Shown here piece by piece: positions 50,668 to 64,000 of a stretch of DNA of 64,000 nt. The stretch is from NCBI RefSeq assembly GCF_000233695.2, contig NZ_CM001488.1:3707601-3771600 (forward strand). Direction: 5' to 3'. The stretch comes from Desulfobacter postgatei 2ac9. Its GTDB lineage: Bacteria > Desulfobacterota > Desulfobacteria > Desulfobacterales > Desulfobacteraceae. The number at the start of each line of letters is the position of its first letter. Within the stretch, counting starts at the first letter, position 1. A model generated the notes under the pieces. That model searched no databases. It was not told the DNA's origin and saw nothing but the letters and a program-made list of their open reading frames with translations. Both the position numbers and the translations under genes were made by a program.

Positions 50668-51111
50668 CTATCCAATAATTTTACTGGTAATTTTTTCCGG
50701 CAACCCTTCAACAAAAAGTCTGATCTCATCCCGGACGCGTCGATAAACAGCAAGTTTTTCATCTTCGTTATTTAAATTTTTAGTCAACTCTGGAGGGTTG
50801 TCAAAGGATTGACAAATGACATTTACCTCAGCCGCAAAACTTGGGCATTTTTGCGCTGCGGTATTACATACGGTTATGACACAATCAATATCTTTTTTCA
50901 TAAAATCCTTAACTTCATGGGTTTCATGACCAGAGATGTCAACACCGGCCTCTTTCATTACCTTAACGGCAAGCGGGTCAAGCGGGCCAGTGCGGATTCC
51001 TGCTGAAAAAGCGTTAATTTTATCCGGATAAAGGTAATGAGCCCAACCTTCAGCCATTTGACTGCGACAAGTATTCATTTCACAAACAAAAAGTATCGTT
51101 TTTTTTGACAT
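50668..51111 (-). CDS. arsC: Thioredoxin-type arsenate reductase (ArsC) / LMW phosphatase
   Basis: A 147-residue protein with P-loop CEMNTCRS (C-x5-R, residues 10-17 region), the resolving cysteines in VCNTAAQKCP (about 82-91), and the low-molecular-weight phosphatase fold. The pairing of P-loop and downstream Cys residues points to thioredoxin-linked arsenate reduction. There is no ars operator or transporter beside it in the window. Confidence 0.85.
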   Translation of the reverse strand: MSKKTILFVCEMNTCRSQMAEGWAHYLYPDKINAFSAGIRTGPLDPLAVKVMKEAGVDISGHETHEVKDFMKKDIDCVITVCNTAAQKCPSFAAEVNVICQSFDNPPELTKNLNNEDEKLAVYRRVRDEIRLFVEGLPEKITSKIIG

Positions 51112-51139
51112 GTAACTTTACCCCTTTTATAAGAAAGTT

Positions 51140-51200
51140 ATGAGTAGTGAGTAGTGAGTATTGAGATTTAAAACAAGCTGTTTTCTCAATACTCACTACT
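51140..51200. repeat. Inverted repeat in the arsC-menF gap
   Basis: GAGTAGTGAGTATTGAG (51142-51158 region) is mirrored by CTCAATACTCACTACTC ending near 51200, around an AT-rich loop. It sits between the shared TATAAGAAAG and the 70-bp dispersed repeat copy 2. No gene is seen in the remaining gap 51268-51525. Confidence 0.6.
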
Positions 51201-51267
51201 CAGATCTTTCAACCTTCGTTGTGGGCTATATCTGGCAGTTGATATGCCAGGTCAGCCCATGGCTGTT
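51198..51267. repeat. 70-bp dispersed repeat, copy 2
   Basis: It matches 42653-42722 at 63 of 70 positions in the same orientation. The core CTGGCAgttgataTGCCAG is a perfect short hairpin here. Confidence 0.7.
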
Positions 51268-51525
51268 CTTAAAAAGTCTTTAATCAGAAAAATTGAGATT
51301 TAGACTATCAAATGTAAAATGAATTACATGTAGCAAATAATTGTTAGACGTTTATGAGAAAATGAATTTAATGGGAGATTAAACATCCCGCCAAAAAAAA
51401 CTGTTATTCATGAACCAGGGATGTTAAAAAAACCGCTCAGGTTGAAATATAATAAAGAAATAAACTGTTAAGATTTATGTAATGGTCGCGTCTGCCGCCG
51501 CTGCCGGTAAAAAATTAGGAACAGG

Positions 51526-52677
51526 ATGAACAGCGTTACACAGCTTGATTGTCTGATTGATGATCTGATAGAAAAAAATGTCGCATTTGCCTGCTGGTTC
51601 CAATCGTCGAGTGACAGCCCACAACTGATTGCCGGGTCGGAAAATGATATCATATTCCCGGCAAGTATAGAGGCGTTGAGCCGGGTCCGCGGATTTGTGT
51701 TTGCCCCGTTTAAAATATCGGACAATGCGCCTGTCATTGTTTTGCAGCCGGCCATACACCTGAAAGGGTATAATCAGATCCAGTCGTTTAACCCGGAATC
51801 CCTGACATCGGCCCCTTTTAGTCGCGAAACAAAAGACCCTTGCATCTCAACGGAGTTTCATGATTACCTGGTGTGCGTCAACCATGCCATTGAACAGATC
51901 AACGCCGCAAAATTTTCCAAGGTCATTGTCTCCAGGCGGATTTGCAAAGAGAGAAAAAGTGAATCCATGGGTCGGCTTTTTCTTGGGATGCACGACGCAA
52001 ACCCGGCTGTGTTTGTCTTTGTGGCAAATCTGCCTAAGGCCGGGCTTTGGATGGGGGCCACCCCTGAACTGTTGTTTCGCTCCGATGGGCGGCATGCCCA
52101 GACCGTGTCCCTGGCCGGCACCCAGCCCCGGCGTCCCGATGGCCGGTATTGCTGGTTTACCAAGGAGATTGAAGAGCAGGCCTTTGTCTCCAGGTACACG
52201 GTGGATGTGCTCCACCGGTTTGGTTTTTCAACCTACCAGACAAAGGGGCCCCAGGATCTTGAGACAGCCACCGTGGCCCACTTGAAAACTTCTTTCTTTT
52301 TTTCCGGAGACCCAATCCAAGACCGGCTTGGAGAATTTGTTGAACAGCTTTGCCCGACGCCTGCGGTCTGCGGTTTGCCCAAGGTTGCTGCAGCTCGTTT
52401 TATCCAGGACTTTGAACCCCACGACAGGCGGTATTATACCGGGTTCCTGGGACCCTGGCGTCTTGGACAAAGCGGCACGGACGTTTATGTGAACCTGCGC
52501 AGCATGGAAATTGAAGACAACCAGTATGTCCTTTACATCGGCGGGGGAATCACGGCCCGCTCCAACCCCGAACAGGAGTGGGAGGAGACCACGCAAAAGT
52601 CCAGAACGCTTTTAAACGCCATAGAGGCGTTGCAGGGACAAGAAACAAGAGACTGGAAACAAGAAACAAGAGGGTGA
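51526..52677 (+). CDS. menF: Isochorismate synthase (chorismate-utilising enzyme)
   Basis: A 383-residue chorismate-binding enzyme. Conserved blocks: KFSKVIVSRRI (about 127-137), LWMGATPELLF (about 175-185), VSLAGTQPR, KEIEEQAFVSRYTVDVL and GFLGPWRLGQSGTDVYVNLRSM. It converts chorismate to isochorismate for menaquinone or siderophore synthesis; no other men or ent genes are near. The short tail has a repeated QETR segment. An AGGAACAGG site precedes the ATG. This is the last ordinary chromosomal gene before the cassette array. Confidence 0.88.
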   Translation: MNSVTQLDCLIDDLIEKNVAFACWFQSSSDSPQLIAGSENDIIFPASIEALSRVRGFVFAPFKISDNAPVIVLQPAIHLKGYNQIQSFNPESLTSAPFSRETKDPCISTEFHDYLVCVNHAIEQINAAKFSKVIVSRRICKERKSESMGRLFLGMHDANPAVFVFVANLPKAGLWMGATPELLFRSDGRHAQTVSLAGTQPRRPDGRYCWFTKEIEEQAFVSRYTVDVLHRFGFSTYQTKGPQDLETATVAHLKTSFFFSGDPIQDRLGEFVEQLCPTPAVCGLPKVAAARFIQDFEPHDRRYYTGFLGPWRLGQSGTDVYVNLRSMEIEDNQYVLYIGGGITARSNPEQEWEETTQKSRTLLNAIEALQGQETRDWKQETRG

Positions 52678-52751
52678 AGCGCCTTTGGCGCCGATTTTAT
52701 ATTTAACCCCACACTTTGAATGTTATCCCGTTCGAAAATTCTATGACACCG

Positions 52752-52856
52752 CTATAACACCGGCACAAAATGATTGTGAATTTCGTTCTTTATTGATACA
52801 GGATTTGTACATGTCATTTGTTGGAGTTATACAGAAAAAAACTACATAATCACTTG
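52752..52856 (+). repeat. attC-like site A (array entry)
   Basis: CTATAAC (R'' type, 52752-52758) is followed by CACAAAATGATTGTG (52764-52778), which pairs with CATAATCACTTGTT (52845-52858) with an extra base, as attC arms do. Cassettes starting TTATAG should own this tail, and such a tag occurs at 57984, so a cassette may have been lost here. A second pairing CAAAATG/CATTTG also exists inside. No integrase gene lies upstream. Confidence 0.6.
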
Positions 52857-53015
52857 TTCTCGGCGGCTGCGCCGCCGAGAATCGCGGTGCTGACTGCGTC
52901 CAGTACCTTGTCCCGGCGCCGCTGGCGCCAGAACAAGGTACTGGACCGGACACCGCACACCGATCATTCAGACTGCGTCTGCCTGATCGGCGCACGGCGC
53001 CGGTCAGCACCGCGA
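52857..53015 (+). repeat. 159-bp multi-hairpin repeat, copy A
   Basis: It starts TT at the attC crossover and ends CACCGCGA just before the next TT. Hairpin 1 is TTCTCGGCGGC-TGC-GCCGCCGAGAA (52857-52881). Outer arms of hairpin 2 are TCGCGGTGCTGAC (52882-52894) and GTCAGCACCGCGA (53003-53015), and inside it GTCCAGTACCTTGT pairs perfectly with ACAAGGTACTGGAC. It has no coding sense. Copies B (54084) and C (55899) have the same length; D and F are the 55-bp form. Confidence 0.85.
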
Positions 53016-53036
53016 TTATACAAAAAAGAGGAAATG

Positions 53037-54029
53037 ATGAAAATTGTAAGCATTTTTAACAATAAAGGCGGAGTCGGAAAAACCACCTACATGTTTCACG
53101 TCGCGCACTTGATGGCAGAGCATGGAAAAACTGTATTAATGGTCGACGCAGACGCGCAATGTAACTTGTCTGCTTATTGCTTATCTGATTCGGAATTGGA
53201 AAAGGCATGGAATGCAACCAGAGGTAATAGTATTTGGCGTGCTGTTGAGGATGTTTATAAAGGGGTTGGGGATATACGTAAACGCCAACCAACAACGGTA
53301 TCAAGCGGCTCAGGTAATTTATATTTAATTCCTGGAGATGTCCTCCTAAGTAACTTTGAAGATTCGCTTGGCGATACTTGGAGCTCCGCTAAAGGTGGTG
53401 CCGAACCAGCTCTTCGTGTTCAGTCGGCCCTGTATCGCTATATAATATGGTGCACTGAAAAGGTAAATGCTGACGTTGTTATGCTTGATCTGGGGCCAAA
53501 CTTAGGTGCTCTGAATAGAGCAGTGCTTGGTGCCAGTGATTATTTCATTATTCCAATGTCGCCCGATTTGTTTTCAATACGTGGTACCGAAAACCTAGGG
53601 AATAAATTGGTTGTATGGAACAAAGAGTGGGGGCAATGCCATGAGGCTTGGTCTGGAGATGGGCTCGCATTACCTCCGGGCAAGCCAAAGTTTCTCGGTT
53701 ACGTGATGCAACAACACAACATTAGACAGTCCCCTGCTGGCATGACCAAGGGCTGGTCAATATTTGGTAACAGAGTAGAAAATGCGGTGAAAGCTAATGT
53801 TGTTGAAAAATTAGCGCCTAATGATCAAGCAATTGAGTGGGATGATGGTACATGGAATTTAGGTAAGATACCAAACTTACATAGTCTCATTCCTTATTCG
53901 CAAGAAGCCCGAAAACCCGTTTTCTATTGCACGTCGCAAGATGGGTTAAAGGGGGCGCATATTTCTACTGCAAGAGATTCCAAAGCACTATTCAAGCCAA
54001 TAGTGGATACTTTGTTGGATGTTGTATAA
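53037..54029 (+). CDS. Solitary ParA/MinD-like ATPase in a cassette
   Basis: About 330 residues. The start is taken as ATG at 53037 (GAGG 5 nt upstream; the adjacent ATG at 53034 is also possible). The deviant Walker A NNKGGVGKTTYMFHVAHLM (about 9-27) and DADAQCNLS (about 40-48) show a ParA-type ATPase, and VVMLDLGPNLGALNRAVL fits the B motif. No ParB or parS-like partner is present, and the gene fills a cassette starting TTATAC (53016) and closed by GTATAAC (54024). Single-gene ParA-like ATPases sometimes serve in defence or as regulators; its role is unknown. Confidence 0.75.
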   Translation: MKIVSIFNNKGGVGKTTYMFHVAHLMAEHGKTVLMVDADAQCNLSAYCLSDSELEKAWNATRGNSIWRAVEDVYKGVGDIRKRQPTTVSSGSGNLYLIPGDVLLSNFEDSLGDTWSSAKGGAEPALRVQSALYRYIIWCTEKVNADVVMLDLGPNLGALNRAVLGASDYFIIPMSPDLFSIRGTENLGNKLVVWNKEWGQCHEAWSGDGLALPPGKPKFLGYVMQQHNIRQSPAGMTKGWSIFGNRVENAVKANVVEKLAPNDQAIEWDDGTWNLGKIPNLHSLIPYSQEARKPVFYCTSQDGLKGAHISTARDSKALFKPIVDTLLDVV

Positions 54030-54083
54030 CAAGTCGTTTCACGCAGATGCGGCAAACGGCACCGCACACTGGTGAACTCTGCG
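54024..54083 (+). repeat. attC-like site B
   Basis: GTATAAC (54024-54030) complements GTTATAC-type start of the ParA cassette. Then GTTTCAC pairs with GTGAAC and TGCGG with CCGCA, and G83|TT marks the crossover where the 159-bp repeat begins. It overlaps the ParA-like stop codon. Confidence 0.75.
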
Positions 54084-54242
54084 TTCACGGCGGCTGCGCC
54101 GCCGTGAATCGCGGTGCTGACTTCGTCCAGCACCTTGTCCCGGCGCCTCTGGCGCCAGAACAAGGTACTGGACCGGACACCGCACACCGATCATTCAGAC
54201 TGCGTCTGCCTGATCGGCGCACGGCGCCGGTCAGCACCGCGA
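54084..54242 (+). repeat. 159-bp multi-hairpin repeat, copy B
   Basis: Hairpin 1 is TTCACGGCGGC-TGC-GCCGCCGTGAA (54084-54108). The right end GTCAGCACCGCGA stops at 54242, followed by TTGGACGA. Compared with copy A, the first hairpin arm is CAC/GTG rather than CTC/GAG and the inner CAGTACC is CAGCACC. Confidence 0.85.
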
Positions 54243-54405
54243 TTGGACGAAGCCCTAACGGGCGGACAGAGAGGGTTTTGATGCTTTTACCCAAGGGGCG
54301 GGACGCCGTGCAAAACTAACCCGATCGTCCAACAAATGAGTTGAAGGCGGGCATCTACCGTCGGAGGCTCTTTTTTTGGCTGTTCGGCAGCCGCTTAACT
54401 CAACG
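54243..54405 (+). other. 163-bp cassette with no full-size gene
   Basis: It begins TTGGACGA and ends in the attC at 54327-54405. A 12-codon frame (MLLPKGRDAVQN) with a GAGAGG site 6 nt upstream of its ATG (54281) is the only reading frame. It could be a tiny gene, a remnant or a spacer cassette. Confidence 0.6.
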
Positions 54406-54411
54406 TTGGGA
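54327..54411 (+). repeat. attC-like site B2 (no hairpin repeat attached)
   Basis: GTCCAAC complements the TTGGACGA cassette start. AACAAATGAGTTGAAG pairs with CTTAACTCAACG, and G|TT crossover falls at 54405/54406. Here the following cassette starts directly (TTGGGAG), so the 159-bp repeat is not obligatory. Confidence 0.8.
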
Positions 54412-54457
54412 GTAAATAAACGCTCATTGCCACTCTTGGAAGATTATTGGAGATAAC

Positions 54458-55174
54458 ATGATAGAAAATTTAAGTGAGTATCTAATCGGAGTCGCAGCAG
54501 GGATAAGATTTAGAGCAAATTTTTCAATTGAAGATCAATTAGGAAAAATTCTTGATACTATTTTATATGCTCAGGACTCCTATTTTAATCCTAAAGTCTT
54601 CCCCAGAGTTGCTAACAATGTCGGCCAAAGAATAATGTATAATTCTGCTACCGACGATAAACTCAGTATTGATAATTCCAATTTTATTTTAGAAATTCAA
54701 TTTGGTTCTAAGGATGGTTTTAACAGTTCAGAATATGATGAAATTTTAAAAAATTTCAATGACCAAATCATCCAAGGCGTTATGTCAGAATTCAAGATTC
54801 AACAAATCATTAGAATAGGTCTTGTTAATCGATATCTTTTTCCTCTTGATGATTTGGCCCAAAGCTTTGTTGATAAAACTATAGGCGAAACATTAGAAGG
54901 GGTTAATGATATAAATTTGAGTTTTTCAAAAAAAATGCCTGTTCCAGAGGCTTTTGTTAAAAGAGATGTTAATGATTACTGCAACGCCATTTTCAATATA
55001 ATTAAAAAGTCTGATTTAGATGAAATCTTTATGTCTATTGACTATCAGCTTTGTTATAGCCCCCCTTTAGAAAAAGCCAGTCATATTAAATTTGCTCCTT
55101 TTATGGATTCAGCACAAAGTTTTGTTACGAATCAATATCTCCCTTGGCTTAATACAAATTATGTGGAGGTATAA
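54458..55174 (+). CDS. Hypothetical protein, TIGR04255-like (first of a two-gene cassette)
   Basis: A 238-residue, AT-rich-coded protein. TTGGAG precedes the ATG. No catalytic motif is evident; IIQGVMSEFKIQQIIRIGLVNR in the middle recalls the sporadically distributed TIGR04255 family, a weak match. Regular mixed alpha/beta spacing suggests a folded globular protein. Its stop touches the next gene (TAA then ATG), so the pair is coupled. Confidence 0.55.
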   Translation: MIENLSEYLIGVAAGIRFRANFSIEDQLGKILDTILYAQDSYFNPKVFPRVANNVGQRIMYNSATDDKLSIDNSNFILEIQFGSKDGFNSSEYDEILKNFNDQIIQGVMSEFKIQQIIRIGLVNRYLFPLDDLAQSFVDKTIGETLEGVNDINLSFSKKMPVPEAFVKRDVNDYCNAIFNIIKKSDLDEIFMSIDYQLCYSPPLEKASHIKFAPFMDSAQSFVTNQYLPWLNTNYVEV

Positions 55175-55681
55175 ATGAAGACTGGCAGAAATGTTCATGT
55201 CCCCAAAACTGATCAAATGAAAAGAAATTATAGGCGATATATTGGGGTGCAGGATTATCAGCCTACCGTGGATGAAAGTCTTGATTTTGAGGAAACAAAT
55301 CAAAGTGGCGAAGATCTATCTTCAATCGATACTTTGAAAAAACGCCCGATAGATCCGGGTGAAAAAATTAGAGATCATTTTTCTAATAACTGGTTAGTAT
55401 GGGTTCTATGTGCACTTTCTGCTGGAATTGTTTATTTAGTTTTCGATTCAAAAGTTGCATTTACCCGTTATGAAACGATTTTGACAACTCAAAGTGAAAA
55501 ATTAACTGACATAAAAAGCACCGAAAACGATTTAGCAAAAAATGATCATTTACAAGATCTTAAAATACAAGAGAATAAGATGCTTTTGGATCATATGAAG
55601 AAGGATATTTCTGATACAAAAACAATGGTATATGAACTTTCAATCTCCCAACAAAACGCTGCAGCCGACCCGGGGGACTAG
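55175..55681 (+). CDS. Hypothetical single-pass membrane protein (second gene of the cassette)
   Basis: A 168-residue protein: an N-terminal soluble basic/acidic part, one membrane helix (WLVWVLCALSAGIVYLVF, about 74-91) and a C-terminal coiled-coil tail (TQSEKLTDIKSTENDLAKN). GAGG precedes the ATG. The pair could be a membrane-anchored partner set, with the first protein cytosolic; homologous systems of that shape include toxin-immunity or abortive modules, but that is only inference. Confidence 0.55.
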   Translation: MKTGRNVHVPKTDQMKRNYRRYIGVQDYQPTVDESLDFEETNQSGEDLSSIDTLKKRPIDPGEKIRDHFSNNWLVWVLCALSAGIVYLVFDSKVAFTRYETILTTQSEKLTDIKSTENDLAKNDHLQDLKIQENKMLLDHMKKDISDTKTMVYELSISQQNAAADPGD

Positions 55682-55740
55682 CGGCTTTTCGAAAGCCCTT
55701 GGTTTTCGGAAAAACTTGGCTTCGACAAACTGCTCTAATT

Positions 55741-55788
55741 CTGGGGACATCTTACATAATCCGAGTTAATTAAGTAAGATGTCCTAAG
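55741..55788. repeat. Short palindromic unit GGACATCTTAC/GTAAGATGTCC
   Basis: The two arms surround ATAATCCGAGTTAATTA. Such GGGGACATCTTAC palindromes look like transposase-associated REP units. It sits where the two-gene cassette should have the first half (TCCCAAC tag) of its attC, which is missing, so it may have replaced it. Confidence 0.5.
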
Positions 55789-55804
55789 ATTACGCTAAGA
55801 GGTA

Positions 55805-55898
55805 GCACAAAATGATTGTGAATTTCGTTCTTTATTGATACAGGATTTGTACATGTCATTTGTTGGAGTTATACAGAAAAAAACTACATAATCACTTG
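55805..55898 (+). repeat. attC-like site C (5' tag lost)
   Basis: From GCACAAAATG the sequence is the same as site A through CATAATCACTTG (55887-55898), but the AAC-ending tag is replaced by GATTACGCTAAGAGGTA. Together with the next repeat this gives 255 bp that differs from 52763-53017 at only two positions I can find. Confidence 0.65.
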
Positions 55899-56057
55899 TT
55901 CTCGGCGGCTGCGCCGCCGAGAATCGCGGTGCTGACTGCGTCCAGCACCTTGTCCCGGCGCCTCTGGCGCCAGAACAAGGTACTGGACCGGACACCGCAC
56001 ACCGATCATTCAGACTGCGTCTGCCTGATCGGCGCACGGCGCCGGTCAGCACCGCGA
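55899..56057 (+). repeat. 159-bp multi-hairpin repeat, copy C
   Basis: Same layout as copies A and B; the right end GTCAGCACCGCGA ends at 56057 and TTGGAAGTG follows. Differences from copy A are CAGCACC for CAGTACC and CCTCTGG for CCGCTGG. Confidence 0.85.
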
Positions 56058-56118
56058 TTGGAAGTGTAACTCAAGATATGGCTCCATCTTGAAACAACAA
56101 AATTTCTTAGAATCAACA

Positions 56119-57825
56119 ATGAGACAATATATGAATATAAATGCAAGTATTATCGATCAACAGGTAAGAGCTTTAGCCGATCGGCAGAAAACGGCAATCG
56201 AGGAAAAGGCAAAATTTAAGAACGATGATAATAAATTGCGTTCAGCTGCATTCGTTGTACTATCCGTAAAGACACTTCTGGAATTAACTGAAGAAGAGGC
56301 AATTGAATGTCTAACTGAAGGTGGAGGAGATTTCGGTGTTGATGCTATTGAAATAGGAGAAATTCAGGATAGTGAGTTCAGCGTCACTCTCTTCCAGGGG
56401 AAATATAAATCCGACCTTGAAGGCACATCAAACTTCCCGCAAACAGGAATCGAGAAATTGATTCAGGCGGTAGGAACACTGTTTGACCCTTACAAAGCCA
56501 TCACAGTTAATCCAAACTTGAAGCCAAGGATAGAGGAAATTCGTTCGTTTGTTGCGGATGGATATCTTCCACAAGTTCGAGTGGTTGCCTGCAACAATGG
56601 TTTGTTTTGGAAAGCGGAGGCTCAGGAACTGATAAATCATACAGGCTTTGGGGGGCAGGTTTTATTCGAGCACATCAATCATGATGGTCTGGTGGCAATA
56701 ATTCAATCGCTGAAACCTGTAAATGATACGGTTCGGCTTACAGGTAAAGCTATTGTCGAAGATTATAATTTCCGTAGGGTTTTAATCGGCAGAATTTTAG
56801 TGTCCGAGCTTGCTGCTGTCTTTGATAGGAATGGGGATAGACTTCTTGAGAGGAATATTCGACGTTATCTTGGATTGCTGGGTAACCGTATTAATGAGGG
56901 AATTGCTCAAACACTGACAATTCCTGGCGAGCAGTCGAATTTCTATTTTTACAATAATGGCATCACTTTAACCTGCAACCAGTTTCAACATAACGCTTTA
57001 CAAGATGAAAATTGGTTGGTGAAACTGTCAGGAATGCAGGTTATCAACGGAGGACAAACTTGTAAAACAATTCAACGAATACTTGGTTCCGGCACTGTAA
57101 CTGCTCCAAACGCATCGGTCCTTATTAGAATTTATGAGTTGCCAAAGGGCGAGGAAGACTTAGTTCGGAATATCACGTATGCGACCAATAGCCAGAATCC
57201 TGTTGATCTGCGAGATTTACGCTCAAATGACGACCGGCAGCGGAAACTTGCCATGTCGATAGAAGAGTTGGGCTACAATTACAGACGGCAGAGAAGCGAG
57301 GTGGCTACAAAAGCCACAGACATTACCAGTGGGACAGCGGCTGAAGCCGTTCTTTCTATCTGGCGTCACCGCCCGCACCAAGGAAAATTTATGACAAGTG
57401 GGCATTTCGGAAAACTTTATGATATCATTTTTACTGATGACTTGAATGGTGCTCAAGTAATAATTGCAGTTCTCTTATTTAGAATTGCTGAGAACAAACG
57501 CAAACGGCCAGCTGTTGGTGCACCCGATTTTATCAGGTACTCATCCTGTTTTGTCGCGATGCTTATGGGTGATTCATTACTTACCCAACTGGGGATCAAG
57601 TGCAACCAGCTTGACCATCGTATATTTGATGATGCGCGCAAGCTTATCGAGACAAAAGGCGATGAATACCATTCTGGCGCAATGAGTCTGATCAAGGTGG
57701 CTTTAAGCGTTTTGTATAAAGATCAGGACGTGAGTCTACAACGTTTGGCTGCCACATTCAGGCGTGGAGATCTTATTGAAATACTTCATCTCTTGCCGAA
57801 TTTATTGAAGAAGCCCGCAGAATGA
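56119..57825 (+). CDS. AIPR-type abortive-infection phage-resistance protein
   Basis: About 568 residues. The start is uncertain: ATG at 56119 is used; TTG at 56089 is in frame, and neither has a clear site. The N-terminus has a PD-(D/E)XK-like core (GGGDFGVDAIEI then LFQGKYK, about residues 60-95) and the AIPR domain follows, with INGGQTCKTIQRIL and YFYNNGITLTCN typical of the family. AIPR proteins give phage resistance by abortive infection. It is a complete single-gene cassette (TTGGAAGTG to CACTTCCAAC), so a defence gene is carried by the array. Confidence 0.85.
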   Translation: MRQYMNINASIIDQQVRALADRQKTAIEEKAKFKNDDNKLRSAAFVVLSVKTLLELTEEEAIECLTEGGGDFGVDAIEIGEIQDSEFSVTLFQGKYKSDLEGTSNFPQTGIEKLIQAVGTLFDPYKAITVNPNLKPRIEEIRSFVADGYLPQVRVVACNNGLFWKAEAQELINHTGFGGQVLFEHINHDGLVAIIQSLKPVNDTVRLTGKAIVEDYNFRRVLIGRILVSELAAVFDRNGDRLLERNIRRYLGLLGNRINEGIAQTLTIPGEQSNFYFYNNGITLTCNQFQHNALQDENWLVKLSGMQVINGGQTCKTIQRILGSGTVTAPNASVLIRIYELPKGEEDLVRNITYATNSQNPVDLRDLRSNDDRQRKLAMSIEELGYNYRRQRSEVATKATDITSGTAAEAVLSIWRHRPHQGKFMTSGHFGKLYDIIFTDDLNGAQVIIAVLLFRIAENKRKRPAVGAPDFIRYSSCFVAMLMGDSLLTQLGIKCNQLDHRIFDDARKLIETKGDEYHSGAMSLIKVALSVLYKDQDVSLQRLAATFRRGDLIEILHLLPNLLKKPAE

Positions 57826-57875
57826 CCTCTCATGCAGAGCGGGGCAACAAGAGTCCAAAAAGATTTTAACTACAC

Positions 57876-57928
57876 TTCCAACAAGGCTAATCAGCCGACG
57901 CAAAAAGCGGCGCGGCTGATTAGCAACG
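57876..57928 (+). repeat. attC-like site D
   Basis: TTCCAAC tag matches GTTGGAA of its cassette, extended to a 9-bp match CACTTCCAA/TTGGAAGTG. Arms GCTAATCAGCC/GGCTGATTAGC are a perfect 11-bp pair with a GACGC-aaaaa-GCGGCGC tip, the classic attC look. G57928|TT is the crossover. Confidence 0.85.
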
Positions 57929-57983
57929 TTCACGGCGGCTCCGCCGCCGTGAATCGCGGTGCTGACTGCATCCAGCACCGCGA
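57929..57983 (+). repeat. 55-bp short form of the hairpin repeat, copy D
   Basis: Hairpin 1 TTCACGGCGGC-TCC-GCCGCCGTGAA and hairpin 2 TCGCGGTGCTG-actgcatc-CAGCACCGCGA. It equals the long form minus 104 bp between two CAGCACC direct repeats. TTATAG follows as the next cassette start. Confidence 0.85.
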
Positions 57984-58296
57984 TTATAGCGAATTGTAAA
58001 CACAACGAAAAAGCATCGGGAGTTGATATGAAAAACAATAAGTTACCCATCTTGTATTCGATGATTCTGATCTTCGTTTTTTACCTTTCACCATTTTGCT
58101 CCTGCCAGGCCCCCCTCAATGCCGTTGACTTAAGAAAATGACGCGTCATTTCAATATGTTAAGGTTCTATATCTGAGCAAGGCGTGAGGGAGGGGTGAAC
58201 CTCTCGAAATTTCCATGACCTTTATATTCAGACATCTTGGTATTTTTGAAAATTACTGGATCGGTTTGAAAGGCAGTGAAACATTTAATAAAATGT

Positions 58297-60060
58297 GTAA
58301 CTTCTCAATAAGTCCGGGTAAAAAGACAAAGGTCAGCCAAATTCAATTGCAGTTAAACAGACAAATTGAGAGCTTTGTTGATGATGAGATCACTAAGATA
58401 AGGAATTTCATTCAAGCCGGATAATCGATCTTCAAGATAATCCCAAAACGAGACATTGAGCTTGCGACATGTTTTTTTCAAACTTGTGAACGTATCCCGG
58501 CATCTTCGACCCAGGTCATTTCTAGTTGAACCGCTGACTTTTCGACGCTTGACATAATCTCGTATATCATTTTCACTGGTATTATTGTGAAGAGGGATAT
58601 GCGGAAAATCCAAAACTCTGAGCAATTCAGGTTTATTTCGATAAATCCGCTTCAAAGCATTGTTCAAGGAAGCAAAACAGGTCTTTTGAGTGAAAATTTT
58701 ATCGAATTGGGCCTCAATATCGGCTTTTTTCTGGTCATCCGGCTGCTCTTTGAAATTTTTGAGGGAAGCATATAAGTCCCAGATGTCGGACCTGATGGAT
58801 TTTACAGCCTCTTTCTGCTTATCCGTAAGACCGATCAATTTATTGATGAGACGTTCTGCATGAATCCAGCACAGCGCGTGAATTAGAACATTGAATTGTC
58901 CGGCATCATCACTGACGATAACCATGTCTGTGTTGAAACCGTGTTCAATTAAACTTCCGACTAGCGCACCTTCAGTGATAATCTTGATATGCAGCGGCTT
59001 TTCAATGCCAAGTAATTTCACGAATTCATCCCACGCAATATCATCCTTGCATACCGTCAAAAGTTTGCTGGTGACAAGCGTGAGAGAATCTTGTGGCAAT
59101 CCTTGAGAGATCATATATGATAAAGCGCTTGCATTGATGATATAATCTGTGCGGCCGGCCTGCAAAAGCTTCAGGAAATTGATTCTGCTTTTGCTGTCGG
59201 TACTATGAAAAGTGGCAAAAAATTCATTTCCGATATGGGTGCAGTAGCCGTTTTGACCTTCGTGTCGGGCAGTCGTGTCATCTACATTGATATGCGTAGA
59301 GACTGACAGGCCTATATCAAGGATGGCATCTTTCTCATCATGAAAGGCGTCATGGTTTTCAATAATAATGTTGCTGAGTTGTCCGGAGGAAATATCAAAG
59401 CCAATATCATGCAACTGTTCAAGAAGTATAGGCTGGGTAACATGGCCATGGTAATACTGGTAAAGTATAAATCTTTTCAGATAGACATCGAAATGACTTC
59501 CGTTCAACTCAGCAGAAAGTTTTCCAGTAAGGGTGCGGCCATCCGGAGTTTCCCATCTTTCCAGACGGTAGCGGATATTATGCGGTTTCATTTCAAGCCC
59601 CTGTACCACAAAGTCTTTATACCCTTTAAAAGTACTCCCCGAAGGAAGATTCTCTGGAGCTACCTTGACGATCTCATGTATTTCCAAGGATTGGGTTTTA
59701 TGACGCTTGGCTGAACCAGGACGTTTCTCTGATGATTCCGGTTTTTTGTGGTTTCCTTCAAGGCTGGATGGCTTGATTTTCGGTCTGGGTTTTTCCCCTT
59801 TAAGGCGGGCAATTTCATCACGGAGGGCCTGATTTTCTTCAGCAAGTGCATTGATGCATTCCAAGAGCGTTAAAACCCAAGACGTCTGCTCTTCTACGGG
59901 AATCTGATCAATTTTTGGAATTTTAACGGTCATGTTTCGCTCCAGAACACAACATGATTAAGTCGAAATTTGTTATAGACAAAAAATAAGAAGGAAAGTA
60001 CTTTTTGCAAGTATTAGCCCCTTACAAATTAATAATCACCCACACTTATTGAGAAGTTAC
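58297..60060 (-). mobile_element. IS66-type insertion sequence (inner)
   Basis: 1764 bp bounded by inverted repeats GTAACTTCTCAATAAGT (58297-58313) and its complement (60044-60060), with an 8-bp duplication TAAAATGT (58289-58296 and 60061-60068). GTAA ends and 8-bp duplications fit the IS66 family. It carries only the transposase gene and looks complete. Confidence 0.9.
58353..59933 (-). CDS. IS66-family transposase
   Basis: A 526-residue transposase. N-terminal coiled-coil/leucine-rich segment (LLECINALAEENQALRDEIARLKGE), basic linker, then the DDE core with Asp in INVDDTTARH (about 228), Asp in VIVSDDAGQF (about 350), and Glu in the HNNTSENDIRDYVKRRK block near the end (about 465-480). Its length, single reading frame and the flanking repeats indicate an intact and possibly active copy. 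It is read opposite to the interrupted cassette gene. Confidence 0.92.
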   Translation of the reverse strand: MTVKIPKIDQIPVEEQTSWVLTLLECINALAEENQALRDEIARLKGEKPRPKIKPSSLEGNHKKPESSEKRPGSAKRHKTQSLEIHEIVKVAPENLPSGSTFKGYKDFVVQGLEMKPHNIRYRLERWETPDGRTLTGKLSAELNGSHFDVYLKRFILYQYYHGHVTQPILLEQLHDIGFDISSGQLSNIIIENHDAFHDEKDAILDIGLSVSTHINVDDTTARHEGQNGYCTHIGNEFFATFHSTDSKSRINFLKLLQAGRTDYIINASALSYMISQGLPQDSLTLVTSKLLTVCKDDIAWDEFVKLLGIEKPLHIKIITEGALVGSLIEHGFNTDMVIVSDDAGQFNVLIHALCWIHAERLINKLIGLTDKQKEAVKSIRSDIWDLYASLKNFKEQPDDQKKADIEAQFDKIFTQKTCFASLNNALKRIYRNKPELLRVLDFPHIPLHNNTSENDIRDYVKRRKVSGSTRNDLGRRCRDTFTSLKKTCRKLNVSFWDYLEDRLSGLNEIPYLSDLIINKALNLSV

Positions 60061-61067
60061 TAAAATGTTACATAACAGCTTGATTTTATGGTTGTTTTTC
60101 TTAAGTCAACGGCATTGAGGCCCCCCTTGGATCTAAAGACTCTGCCGAAAGCTCCAGACTATACGGCACCGGACGGCTGGATAGTCAAACCTGCCGCCCC
60201 CACAACCCCGGTTGATGTTTTTTTCGTTTATCCAACGGTCCTGTTTAATGATAAGGATTGGATAATGGATACGACCAGACCGGACATGAGGGCAGCTGCC
60301 ATGGAGACGATAAAGACTATGGCCTCTGTCTTTGAAGGACAGGTGAATATCTACGCCCCAATGTATCGCCAGATGAATTTGGCCGGTCTGGGATTGAGTG
60401 ATTCTGACGCCGCACCATTGCAAGAGATTGTGCATAGTGATGTCTGGCGTGCGCTGTCCTATTACCTGAAATATGAAAATGACGGTCGCCCCTTTTTCTT
60501 GGCAGGCGATAGCCAGGGTTCCATGATCTTGACGGATCTTCTCATCGAGCATTGGGGTTCAACCGACGCCGAAAAGCTGCTTGTTGCGGCCTTACTTCCC
60601 GGGTGGTCCTTGACCTCGGAGGATCTTGCTATTAATCCCTCGGTACGCATGTGTGAACGTTCAGATCAAACTAACTGTGTTATCTCTTACAATACAATGG
60701 CTGCGGGACGACAATCAATTGCGCCGACTCTCAAAAAGGGCGCCCTGGCGGTCAACCCCCTATCGTGGAGCATGGACAGCGCCTTTGTCCCCGCTAAGAA
60801 GAACCTTGGTTCTGTCTTCTTTGATAGTGCTGACAAAGCCACTACCTACCCGCATTTCACTTCGGCTCAGATTGTAGATGGTGGCCTGATAGTCCAACCC
60901 GAGAATATCGCCTTGGTTACTGTCCAAGGTGGCCATTTCCCGGAAGGGGTTTACCACGCCTTTGACTATTCACTCTTTTTTGAGAATCTTAAGGTCAATA
61001 TTGCCGAACGCATCGATGCCTTTACCCATAAATAAGTTTGATGATCGTGATAAATGCGTGATAAATG

Positions 61068-61144
61068 GGGTCAGAGTAAAATTGAATTTTTTAATTTTAA
61101 CTATAATTTGAACAATTATCTTGAAAATAATTTTACTCTGACCC
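61068..61144. repeat. GGGTCAGAGTAAAATT palindrome
   Basis: GGGTCAGAGTAAAATT (61068-61083) and its exact complement AATTTTACTCTGACCC (61129-61144) bound an AT-rich interior. The half repeats at 62848-62863. It lies between the DUF3089 stop and attC-like site F and fits a REP/miniature-type mobile unit. Confidence 0.75.
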
Positions 61145-61150
61145 TAATTA

Positions 61151-61255
61151 TTATAACACCGGCACAAAATGATTGTCAATTTCGTTTTTTATTGATACAG
61201 GATTTGTACAGGTTATTTGTTGGAGTTTTACAGAAAAAAACTACATAATCACTTG
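61151..61255 (+). repeat. attC-like site F
   Basis: TTATAAC tag, then CACAAAATGATTGTC pairing with CATAATCACTTG (61244-61255). It is the same module as sites A and C with scattered changes. The expected tag for the DUF3089 cassette (TTATAG start) is CTATAAC, so one base differs. Confidence 0.65.
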
Positions 61256-61310
61256 TTCACGGCGGCTCCGCCGCCGAGAATCGCGGTGCTGACTGCGTCC
61301 AGCACCGCGA
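61256..61310 (+). repeat. 55-bp short form of the hairpin repeat, copy F
   Basis: Same two-hairpin layout as copy D; hairpin 1 has CAC on one arm and GAG on the other, so it mixes the two arm types of copies A and B and pairs less well. TTGTGC follows as the next cassette start. Confidence 0.8.
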
Positions 61311-61335
61311 TTGTGCATATAAAAAAGAGAAGAAC

Positions 61336-61959
61336 ATGAGCAAGAAAAGGAAGTTGGATTTTTCCCTACTGCCTCAAATTGATGGAATGGACATTTTCAT
61401 CCGTTTAGATGGTAACTTGGAAGATAAATTTAAGAATAGTTCTGTTTTCAAAGAAACATATGAGAGATCACAAGCTTCAATTATGTTTGTATGTAATGCA
61501 AACAAAGAATATGAAAACTGGCGCAATTCTGCTTATCTGCGGGCTGGGTTGAATGAGTTTTACTCAATTGAAGATGCTGCGAGGAGAGACTTCAGAAAAA
61601 GCAACATAGGCTTTAAGCCTCCAAAGATAAGTGATTCGAAGAATCCATTGGTTCATGCAATGTATATGTTAAGACATGTCAATGTTCATGCTGATATATC
61701 CAAAACAGATATTCATGATACGACAGTGGTTTCAACATTAGGTGAGCAACCCAGAAATATCGATTGGAAGTCTGTAATTCTTGCAAAACCTATTTTAAGC
61801 CAACTTAGTCTTCAAGAAGCTGCAAAGTTCTATGAAAATTCTGACTTGAAACAGATCACAGAGTGGATAGAAGAAAACCAAAATATATTCGGTATTGGAG
61901 AATTGTTTCGTAGAGGACTATCGGCGTACTGTAATGAACTTTATTTGACAACCATATAA
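61336..61959 (+). CDS. Hypothetical protein in a cassette
   Basis: A 207-residue protein with AGAGAAG before its ATG. The sequence (HAMYMLRHVNVHADISK in the middle; AKFYENSDLKQITEWIEENQ near the end) is soluble and helix-rich; the HxxRHVNVH segment could be a catalytic or metal-binding His cluster. No family is recognised. The cassette runs from TTGTGC (61311) to attC GCACAAC (61967). Confidence 0.6.
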   Translation: MSKKRKLDFSLLPQIDGMDIFIRLDGNLEDKFKNSSVFKETYERSQASIMFVCNANKEYENWRNSAYLRAGLNEFYSIEDAARRDFRKSNIGFKPPKISDSKNPLVHAMYMLRHVNVHADISKTDIHDTTVVSTLGEQPRNIDWKSVILAKPILSQLSLQEAAKFYENSDLKQITEWIEENQNIFGIGELFRRGLSAYCNELYLTTI

Positions 61960-61966
61960 AATTACA

Positions 61967-62029
61967 GCACAACCAGTCACTTCACCGGACCCGGCAAACA
62001 GCGCCGGTCCGGTGAGTTCCACGTTATGC
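61967..62029 (+). repeat. attC site G
   Basis: GCACAAC tag complements TTGTGC. Arms TCACCGGACCCGGC and GCCGGTCCGGTGA pair around AAACAGC, then G62023|TTATGC. This is the most textbook-like attC of the array, and the next cassette starts directly with no hairpin repeat. Confidence 0.9.
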
Positions 62030-62051
62030 GTAAAAAGAAACGGAGAAATCA

Positions 62052-62798
62052 ATGGCATTAACGAAATGCAAAGAATGCGGCGAAGAAATAAGTAAGAAAG
62101 CTGAGAAATGCCCCAAATGCGGTGCGCCCGCCAAAAAGAAGACTTCTCTCTTAACATGGATAGTTACAATTTTTATTGTTCTTTGGGCTATCGGATATTT
62201 TTCTAGTCCATCAACAACATCACGTTCATCGAGTCCAAGTACTACGTCCAGCAGTTCCTCAAATTCATCAAGCTATTTGGCACCGAGAGAATATTCACCT
62301 CCGCTTGAGGTAATCTCGTGGAAATGTGACAAAGAATATAGTTATGTCTTTGTTCGAGGCGAAGTGAAAAATATTTCTAGTCAAAGCATTAAAAACGTTA
62401 TGGCCGTTGGTGAGTTCCGCACAAAAGATGGAACTCTAGTCAAATCCGAAGATTCGCTAATTGATTACAATCCAATATTGCCCGGGCAAACGTCTCCCTT
62501 TAAAACAGGAGGCACTGACAATCCAGCGATTACAAACTGCAATCTTTCTTTTAAAACGTTGTTCGGTAAACAGTTGGGTTATACAACTGCAAAAGATAGA
62601 AAGGCGAAAGAAAGAGAAAAAATAAAGGAAGTTCAAACGCTATTATCTAGTCTTGGTTATCAGGTGGGTGTCGCAGATGGAATTATCGGCGCAAAAACTA
62701 AACAAGCGATAAAGGAGTTTCAATCCAAGCAGGGATTGACCGAAAACGGTGAGATTTCAAATCAACTTATTGTTGAACTACGAAGAGCCAAGAAATGA
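62052..62798 (+). CDS. Zinc-ribbon membrane protein with peptidoglycan-binding domain
   Basis: A 248-residue protein. The N-terminal zinc ribbon (CKECGEEISKKAEKCPKCG, about 6-24) is followed by a membrane helix (LTWIVTIFIVLWAIGYF, about 34-50), a long Ser/Thr-rich linker, a FxLYD-like beta domain (about 85-165), and a C-terminal PG-binding domain (VQTLLSSLGYQVGVADGIIGAKTKQAIKEFQ). GGAG precedes the ATG. It is likely a cell-envelope-associated protein; its function is unknown. Confidence 0.75.
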   Translation: MALTKCKECGEEISKKAEKCPKCGAPAKKKTSLLTWIVTIFIVLWAIGYFSSPSTTSRSSSPSTTSSSSSNSSSYLAPREYSPPLEVISWKCDKEYSYVFVRGEVKNISSQSIKNVMAVGEFRTKDGTLVKSEDSLIDYNPILPGQTSPFKTGGTDNPAITNCNLSFKTLFGKQLGYTTAKDRKAKEREKIKEVQTLLSSLGYQVGVADGIIGAKTKQAIKEFQSKQGLTENGEISNQLIVELRRAKK

Positions 62799-62815
62799 CG
62801 CCATGTGCAAAATAT

Positions 62816-62822
62816 CGCATAA
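62816..62822 (+). repeat. Truncated attC remnant of the zinc-ribbon cassette
   Basis: CGCATAA matches the TTATGCG start of its cassette exactly over 7 bp, but the attC arms are gone: CGATAAATGGGGTCAGG follows at once, the start of a REP-like sequence. Confidence 0.6.
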
Positions 62823-62829
62823 TCGATAA

Positions 62830-62863
62830 ATGGGGTCAGGATAAATGGGGTCAGAGTAAAATT
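62830..62863. repeat. Tandem GGGGTCAGG/GGGGTCAGAG motif
   Basis: TGGGGTCAGGATAAA then TGGGGTCAGAGTAAAATT; the second half is identical to one arm of the palindrome at 61068. No complementary right arm is seen in the 170 bp before the next gene, which otherwise is plain AT-rich DNA. Confidence 0.6.
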
Positions 62864-63037
62864 AAACTTCTACGCCCTGTCTTAACACAATAGTTCGGTA
62901 ATTTTTGGGATTTGAAAGGTTAAATTTTTGTAACTAATTGAAATTATTGGAACTGAATTTTATTTTCTAATTTCATAACCTACTGAATTTATTGAGTCTG
63001 AAAAAAATTACCGAAGTATTCTTAACAAGGAGTATGT

Positions 63038-63868
63038 ATGAAGAAAAATTATCTTCAAGTAATCATGGTAATATTGTTGATGATCACCGCTTCAACTGTA
63101 AACGGGCAGATTGATCATTCCAAGCATGGATCGCACTCATCAGGTAGTGCAGTGAAATCTTTTAAGGCTGAAATGTCTGTTCCGTCTGAAATCAGACAGG
63201 AGCAGATTTTTCCGATAACGATCCTTATTAAAGATGAAAAAGAGCGGAATGTTACACGGTTTGAAACATTTCAGGAAAAACTGATGCATCTGATCATTGT
63301 CAGTGATGATCTGGAATTTTTCCGTCATCTTCATCCTGATTATAAGGCAGACGGCAGTTTTCTGACAGAAACCAGTTTCCCCGATGCCGGAGAGTATACT
63401 CTTTTCAGTGATTACAAACCGGAAAATAGCGGAGAGCAGATTTCAGTGCTCAAACTCCGCATAAAAGGAACCGCAAGACCGCTGACCGTTCCGGATACAA
63501 AAAAAACCGAAATAATTGTCGGAGATGTCAAGGTCAGTATGGATGTCTCGCCGAAAACAGTGAAAACGAATGAAGAAACAACTGTTGCCTTTGATTTGAA
63601 AATGGTATCGGATGACAGCCCTGTCAAAGGTTTGCATCCGTTTCTCGGTGAGAAAGCTCATCTTGTCGTAATCAGAAAATCAGAGATATTGAACGTCAAT
63701 GACTATATCCATGCTCATGCGATGAAAGAGGGGGAACCATCTTTGATAAAATTTAAAACCCAATTCCCTTCTGCGGGCATTTACAAACTTTGGTGTCAGT
63801 TTAACTATAAAAACGAAGTGGTGACTGCTGATTTCGTCCAGCACCGCGATTATAGTCCTGGCCTTTAG
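63038..63868 (+). CDS. YtkA/FixH-like secreted protein with a repeat-derived C-terminus
   Basis: A 276-residue protein with an N-terminal signal peptide (about 1-24) and a His-rich mature start (IDHSKHGSHSSG). Two Ig-like beta domains follow; FFRHLHPDYKADGSF and the second DYIHAHAMKEGEPSLI with KLWCQF near the end carry Met/His/Cys positions seen in metal-related YtkA/FixH-like proteins. AAGGAG precedes the ATG. The last residues VQHRDYSPGL are encoded by the right half of the hairpin repeat, so the natural end of the gene has been replaced. Confidence 0.65.
   Translation: MKKNYLQVIMVILLMITASTVNGQIDHSKHGSHSSGSAVKSFKAEMSVPSEIRQEQIFPITILIKDEKERNVTRFETFQEKLMHLIIVSDDLEFFRHLHPDYKADGSFLTETSFPDAGEYTLFSDYKPENSGEQISVLKLRIKGTARPLTVPDTKKTEIIVGDVKVSMDVSPKTVKTNEETTVAFDLKMVSDDSPVKGLHPFLGEKAHLVVIRKSEILNVNDYIHAHAMKEGEPSLIKFKTQFPSAGIYKLWCQFNYKNEVVTADFVQHRDYSPGL
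63827..63849 (+). repeat. Fragment of the hairpin repeat
   Basis: TGCTGATTTCGTCCAGCACC then GCGA matches the centre and right arm of the short repeat (closest to copy B, which has TGCTGACTTCGTCCAGCACC). The left arms are missing. TTATAGT follows, the same start tag as the DUF3089 cassette. The last 132 bp of the window shows only a small CCACTCC...GGTGTGG stem and no gene. Confidence 0.7.
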
Positions 63869-64000
63869 GCCGTAAAACCCACTCCTTTAGGTGTGGGATA
63901 TAAGTTTTTGCTTTAGCATTTTCCCTAGACAAAACGGGTAAAATGTACTAAGAAATTTAAGTTGATGATAGTTGGGGAGCAGACATGATGATTTCAACAA

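Follow-up and report, generated by a model that had tools for sequence, protein, structure and literature searches.

The window analyzed here, a stretch of 64,000 nucleotides of Desulfobacter postgatei 2ac9 (contig NZ_CM001488.1), contains an integron cassette array in which five forward-strand copies of a hairpin-rich repeat unit are interspersed. Three of these are long (159 bp, at 52857..53015, 54084..54242 and 55899..56057) and two are short (55 bp, at 57929..57983 and 61256..61310). The long copies are 98-100% identical to the third, and all five start with TTC after a G and end in CACCGCGA before a TT, which confirms the placement of each copy between a crossover base and the next TT in a preliminary description of this DNA. 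Each copy precedes a cassette: in order, one with a ParA/AAA_31-type gene (53016..54083, forward strand), a small one without an evident gene (54243..54405, forward), one with an AIPR-family gene (56058..57928, forward), one starting at 57984 with an IS66-type transposase gene inside it (58353-59933), and one whose gene has no Pfam match (61311..62023, forward). Farther downstream, a right-end-like fragment of the unit, CAGCACCGCGA-TT, lies near the end of an ORF at 63838-63849.

The sequence layout of the unit can be described with the terms used in the available text of PMC2727003, where the 5' arm of an attC, which carries the AAC, is R''-L'' and the arm with the crossover is L'-R'. The 159-bp unit consists, in order, of TTC[A/T]CGGCGGC, a loop, the complement of this box ending in GAA, TCGCGGTGCTGAC, hairpin A, hairpin B and GTCAGCACCGCGA. 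As read from the sequence of the third copy, R' occupies 55899-55909 and is followed after a 3-nt loop by its complement (55913-55923), by the complement of L' (55924-55936), by hairpin A (55940-55988) and, at the end of the unit, by L' (56042-56057). The 55-bp unit is the 159-bp unit without the stretch between two CAGCACC repeats, and such forms are probably deletions between these repeats that keep only the perfect outer arms. Of 121 candidates, 5 proved to be the palindrome read in antisense and were dropped, which left a set of 116 copies, all of which are made up of hairpins over 49-162 bp, the long ones mostly measuring 155-162 bp. None contains a gene, and ORFs of more than 70 aa that overlap unit copies extend into the flanking sequence.

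Inspection of the long copies shows that the 3' half of the unit is an attC, comprising the AAC, an L stem with an extra base, a branched terminal structure, L' and the crossover. In the window these sites span 84 nt from AAC to crossover (52932..53015, 54159..54242 and 55974..56057, all forward). All 51 distinct long copies have this AAC at position 72-76, which places it 83-87 nt ahead of the crossover. The sequence that follows it pairs with the unit end, and every one of the 51 alignments leaves one or more extra bases on the AAC arm; the letter of this extra-helical base varies among copies. None of the 18 distinct short copies has the AAC. An initial idea that the unit is devoid of an extra-helical base was dropped once the inner attC had been found. 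When the 3' half and the first 11 nt are joined as in a circle and the bottom strand is folded, all three long window copies form a single attC hairpin with an R stem, an unpaired spacer, an L stem with an extra base and a terminal structure. The attC at the 3' end, together with the matching R' box at the 5' end, means that a closed circle would hold a complete attC. The 5' end of the unit is an imperfect complement of the real AAC-side box and a near-perfect one of its copy in the leader. Additionally, in the G055 copies, which have G/TT at the right junction (the slash marking the crossover), a simple attC finder called the inner attC unprompted.

The behavior of a further element bears on this site. 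At locus L265 of the same genome (G000:C1:1424800-1429600), a unit copy is split at the AAC by an insertion with RVT_1 and GIIM domains, and this reverse transcriptase/group II maturase insertion is itself interrupted by a second such gene. Next to ACAA its border is identical to the one seen in two ordinary attCs, L121 and L201. The unit copies of G049 (L123) and G057 (L111) break at the same insertion point and have similar left borders. Thus, another attC-seeking element, a candidate group II intron, seems to treat the unit as an attC.

The 5' half, in turn, is a folding leader. It opens with R' (11 nt) and the loop (3 nt in nearly all copies), after which come a perfect complement of the unit's own ends (of R', then of L') and a complement of the real R''-L'' arm, so that this arm can pair either as an attC or within hairpin A, not in both ways at once. 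The two ends of the unit can form a 22-bp duplex, with 19-22 positions paired in 83 of 83 complete copies and all 22 in 57. In the top-strand consensus fold of the 51 distinct long copies, 2355 of 2388 pair cells are kept and 12 pairs have changed on both sides. None of the long copies has its inside inverted: 50 of 51 were found to be forward by 8-mer count, and the last one (8 vs 9 shared words) by eye. With DNA parameters the bottom strand is more stable than the top strand in all 51 (mean -72.5 vs -62.5 kcal/mol), and wobble cells on the bottom strand comprise 267 G.T vs 17 A.C. The bottom strand is likewise the more stable in 6 vs 2 of the 8 mid-length copies, and the 18 short copies are without strand bias (9 vs 7). 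Control segments are directionless (227 vs 238 among 474), and the 45 ordinary attCs to the left of units give no comparable bias (18 vs 24); hence, the bias is not a general mark of attCs. Chance hairpins were rejected as an explanation on the basis of shuffled sequence, which gave no match on one strand of 990,676 bases and, at looser settings, 2 matches on both strands of 530,199 bases. A scan for promoter consensus sequences, which is not a functional test, placed no site inside any unit and two sites touching unit edges or attI.

These fold data raise the alternative that the unit is a bottom-strand structured RNA, or its gene, traveling as a cassette, with the fold kept for the sake of the RNA. 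The paired changes, the wobble pairs favoring the bottom strand and the recurrence of the fold in sequence-unrelated units (see below) all accord with it. However, the bottom strand is also the strand used by the integrase IntI, and Rfam offered no match at the gathering score either in window positions 51000-64000, where all matches stay below it (best E-value 0.085), or in six other loci. We therefore regard an RNA as an improbable account of the unit.

Turning to the left flanks, the preliminary description had placed all five copies at the attC of cassettes. This holds for two of them: the copy at 54084 is preceded by an ordinary attC at 54028..54083 (forward; finder score 7.6, which falls between the control's 95th and 98th percentiles; its R box matches its own start over 8 nt) and the copy at 57929 by another at 57880..57928 (forward; score 13.8). 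The copies at 52857, 55899 and 61256 instead follow attI-type sites, namely a repeat of about 95 bp ending in CACTTG (52763..52856, 55805..55898 and 61162..61255, all forward), which matches the attI sites beside intI genes of relatives (92% over 36 nt for the attI of G012 and G026). Integrase matches in the family had been sorted by hand into one group scoring mostly above 400 bits and a second, henceforth group 2, of about 340-384 bits with frames of about 410-490 aa. Among 23 group-2 intI loci examined, 16 of which had a frame recognized by the script, 9 of these 16 carry a site ending in ACTTG/TT 82-115 nt before the intI frame. The first unit at these nine attI sites is the repeat in two (G026, G048) and another cassette in seven. 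At L166:14840-16303 and other group-2 loci, the encoded IntI-like proteins are extended at the N-terminus by about 150 aa ahead of the usual domains.

Several features of the attI-like repeats in the window stand apart from the question of the unit itself. Three of them occur in one stretch of DNA, in a genome where no group-2 intI gene was found. Two of them, ending at 55898 and 61255, terminate array members, as in delta-attI cassettes. On the minus strand at 61150-61179, in the third, there is a 12/12 match to the sigma-70-type consensus with a TG extension; it faces away from the array and has the position expected of an intI promoter.

Analysis of the whole copy set shows that the units are strongly enriched at attI and attC crossovers. 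The base before the left TT is G in 100, A in 11 and T in 5 of the 116 copies. From 115 copies with at least 90 nt of left flank, removal of 2 repeated flanks left 113 distinct ones, which were scored against an attI threshold, set at the 99.5th percentile of 1333 control GTT sites, and a hairpin threshold (95th percentile). The former was exceeded by 26 flanks, two of which (L071, L193) are doubtful by eye, the latter by 46, and either by 70, where about 6 of 113 would be expected. The remaining 43 lie under both thresholds; inspected by eye, L013, L031 and L074 among them are attCs, and L063, L068, L199, L203 and L227 are not. The chromosomal unit at L013 sits outside any recognized array. 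Occurrence away from attC-like sites, which the preliminary description had named as a point against its reading, is thus seen in part, since some of the 43 flanks that miss both thresholds are attCs by eye and others are not.

This spectrum of sites also bears on a second alternative, in which the unit is a miniature transposon, either a REP-like element mobilized by a single-strand transposase of the Y1 type or a small element of the IS110/IS1111 type, with a folded attC as its target. Hairpin ends, the multicopy and scattered occurrence and four Y1_Tnp matches in the genome of the window would suit such an element. However, attI, a site that is no hairpin, is also among the targets, with an identical crossover; of the 4 nt preceding the unit only the last is conserved, contrary to what a REP/Y1 target would lead one to expect; the unit carries its own attC; and no transposase with these ends was present among the loci fetched. 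IS1111-attC elements and group IIC-attC introns are known to target attC. They carry protein genes or a ribozyme, which the unit does not; it is too short for a transposase gene, no larger version of it appeared among the fetched loci, and the group II intron described above sits inside a unit copy. A miniature transposon is accordingly very improbable in our estimation.

On the right, the neighbor is a complete cassette in four of five cases, the AAC-side box of its own attC complementing the bases directly after the unit over 8 nt (53016), 8 nt (54243), 9 nt (56058) and 6 nt (61311). Two of these cassettes end in ordinary forward attCs at 54331..54405 (finder score 9.6) and 61971..62023 (score 10.8). 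The neighbor at 57984, with the IS66-type transposase gene, yielded no clean match of an AAC-side box. The small cassette starting TTGGACGAAGCCC (54243-54405) is present in whole or in part in 14 of 86 family genomes. It follows the unit in the window, at L011 of the same genome and in G012 (L126), and stands directly after G, without the unit, in G024 and G080 (both at attI-like sites), in G061 and G062 and, slightly changed, in G051. Similarly, the cassette TTCATGACC follows the unit in G055 and an attI-like site in G056. At one chromosomal gene pair, the genome of the window has 194 nt between common anchors vs 49 nt in G013, the longer stretch containing a short attC-like hairpin and a truncated unit. 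Further, one array contains six near-identical full copies (96-100% to the first) before different cassettes. These observations leave very little room for a third alternative, that the unit is the 5' leader of the following cassettes and not independent: every window copy does precede a cassette, none is in tandem, and no main-family tandem exists among 83 complete copies, but the following cassettes are complete without the unit and occur without it elsewhere, near-identical copies stand before different cassettes, and at L190 another gene-less unit is in tandem with the main unit.

The junctions clarify how the unit is set between its neighbors. The right junction was described at the outset as A/TT and not G/TT, and A is indeed found in 75 of 83 complete copies, with G in the other 8. 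G/TT at both junctions is thus confined to this variant of 8 copies, mostly from one genome, and hence the claim that the unit works like a cassette is stronger than that of strict membership. The same description had likened the TT on both sides to a 2-bp duplication, a reading that did not survive. On the left, the TT is paired with the AA closing hairpin 1; on the right, the TT opens the R' box of the next cassette; and the empty sites carry G/TT once. As the flanking TTs belong to R' boxes, a target duplication was rejected.

A scan for the same layout irrespective of sequence extended these findings to units outside the main family. In 271 loci (1.05 Mb) it recovered 72 places, 7 of them outside the main sequence family, including one antisense reading and one weak case; a looser scan of 40 further stretches, most of them beside intI genes (530 kb), recovered 1 main-family unit and 7 others, of which 3 are weak, 2 belong to known families and 2 are new. 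L118 from the first scan and the weak, AT-rich L299, L303 and L312 from the second were set aside as chance. The unit in G076 is 160 nt long, with three copies and G/TT at both ends, and occurs in 1 of 86 genomes; further convincing units are found in G012 (160 nt) and G028 (182 nt), and smaller ones of 114-121 nt in G056, G052 and the MAG of L190, those of G052 and L190 sharing sequence. The G076 and G012 units share the AAC at 75 and the extra base, and the three smaller units likewise have an AAC with an extra base; the G028 unit does not, and L282 has no convincing inner AAC. A clear stability advantage of the bottom strand is seen for the G076, G012 and G028 units but for none of the smaller ones. 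A covariance model built from the main family matches the G012 unit (E 2.1e-12), L304 (6e-4) and L282 (7e-3) with borders that are equal or within a base, and the 121-nt unit of L190 only on the other strand (5e-4); it misses the G076 unit. A match at L300 (E 0.0056) was not counted as it covers the right half only. Unit-unit tandems within the main family are absent among the 83 complete copies; the 121-nt unit at L190 is the one in tandem with a main unit.

The presence of the unit in the window and its genome is not due to chance, because 16 matches occur in that genome and 37 of 86 family genomes are also matched. The 16 matches can be read as 13 places, with 5 full-length copies, 1 split by insertion and 7 short or partial. 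Related copies are spread over many sulfate-reducing bacteria. In a phylum-wide sample, a 72-nt query from another copy matched 13 of 395 genomes from 11 families. An exact 33-nt pattern returned 48 stretches from named genomes, with titles mostly of Desulfobacter, Desulfobacula, Desulfobulbus, Desulfofustis, Desulfocicer, NaphS2 and Desulfobacteraceae/Deltaproteobacteria MAGs, besides two MAGs titled Planctomycetota and Flavobacteriales that may be binning errors. As to a vehicle, neither plasmids nor phages gave a unit match, and IMG/VR gave none with two exact patterns, which would miss diverged copies.

The connection to particular integrases was then considered. IntI is matched at 1e-60 in 47 of 86 family genomes. 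The genome of the window has a single match over the cut-off, with a stop inside and the last 25 positions 12 kb away, and neither an intact IntI gene nor one of group 2 was found in it; the complete genomes G022 and G057 likewise have units and no IntI match at 1e-60. The link to the presence of any IntI is weak (p 0.28). For group 2, the unit is found in 17 of 25 genomes vs 20 of 61 (p 0.004, with groups assigned by hand and kinship ignored), and it occupies 2 of the 9 attI sites found in relatives, those of G026 and G048. Separately, L160 (G055:C1:3030001-3050000) has three adjacent frames with tyrosine-recombinase motifs at about 12.2-15.1 kb within a cassette array, which we take to resemble a recombinase trio.

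Taken together, the inner attC of the long copies and the enrichment at attI and attC crossovers strongly favor the option, already raised in the preliminary description, that the repeat is a gene-less integron cassette, probably moved by an integron integrase. In the proposed mechanism, IntI would recombine the folded bottom strand of a unit circle with attI or attC, placing the unit after the G of the target site and before the TT with which the formerly adjacent cassette begins. The base before the TT would stay with the left partner, which would give G/TT on the left and A/TT on the right. Later insertions at attI would push the unit into the array, so that the two steps could together account for its places inside arrays.

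Gene-less integron cassettes as a class are already in print (PMC11014356, PMC1382264, PMC8876359, as far as their available text goes), so that the earlier statement that no element of this kind had been described does not apply to the class and could hold only for the self-complementary structure, a form that a literature search, with most subscription papers outside its reach, did not find described. In the accessible portions of these sources, gene-less cassettes of Vibrio, Treponema and Xanthomonas resemble the unit in having no gene, a 3' attC and a position inside arrays, and those of Vibrio often exist as many related copies, up to 45 in one array (PMC1382264). Unlike them, the unit has a 5' half that is the folded complement of its own ends and attC arm, a crossover that is mostly A/TT, and a form that extends across many genera. 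The VCR-type large attC of Vibrio, as presented in the available text of PMC2727003, resembles the unit in its branched terminal structure and in carrying an extra base on the AAC arm; it ends gene cassettes, whereas the unit has no gene and adds a leader complementing the site. The delta-attI cassettes (PMC12901181, in the portion available) are array members ending in attI, like the window pieces that end at 55898 and 61255, but they are resistance cassettes of mobile integrons, and the likeness concerns the neighbors of the unit and not the unit itself.

The gene-less cassette most likely owes its persistence to being a small integron parasite. The two exclusive folds, with the attC formed or its arm in hairpin A, might work as a mobility switch; in the second of them, hairpin A would capture the attC arm and the ends of the cassette would form a perfect duplex. 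More tentatively, and at less than even probability in our judgment, the unit could stand for a class of protein-free selfish integron parasites that combine a minimal attC with a folding leader and use two exclusive bottom-strand folds as such a switch. If this were the case, the recurrence of the fold in families unrelated in sequence, beside different intI genes, would mean that the class is defined by structure and not by sequence. The unit would be a nearly minimal mobile cassette, and it raises several testable points, namely A/TT in place of G/TT, a leader that hides an attC from the integrase, and the existence of parasites of integrons. From its many natural variants one can read which features of an attC are retained, and annotation that seeks AAC...G/TT next to a gene may miss such units.
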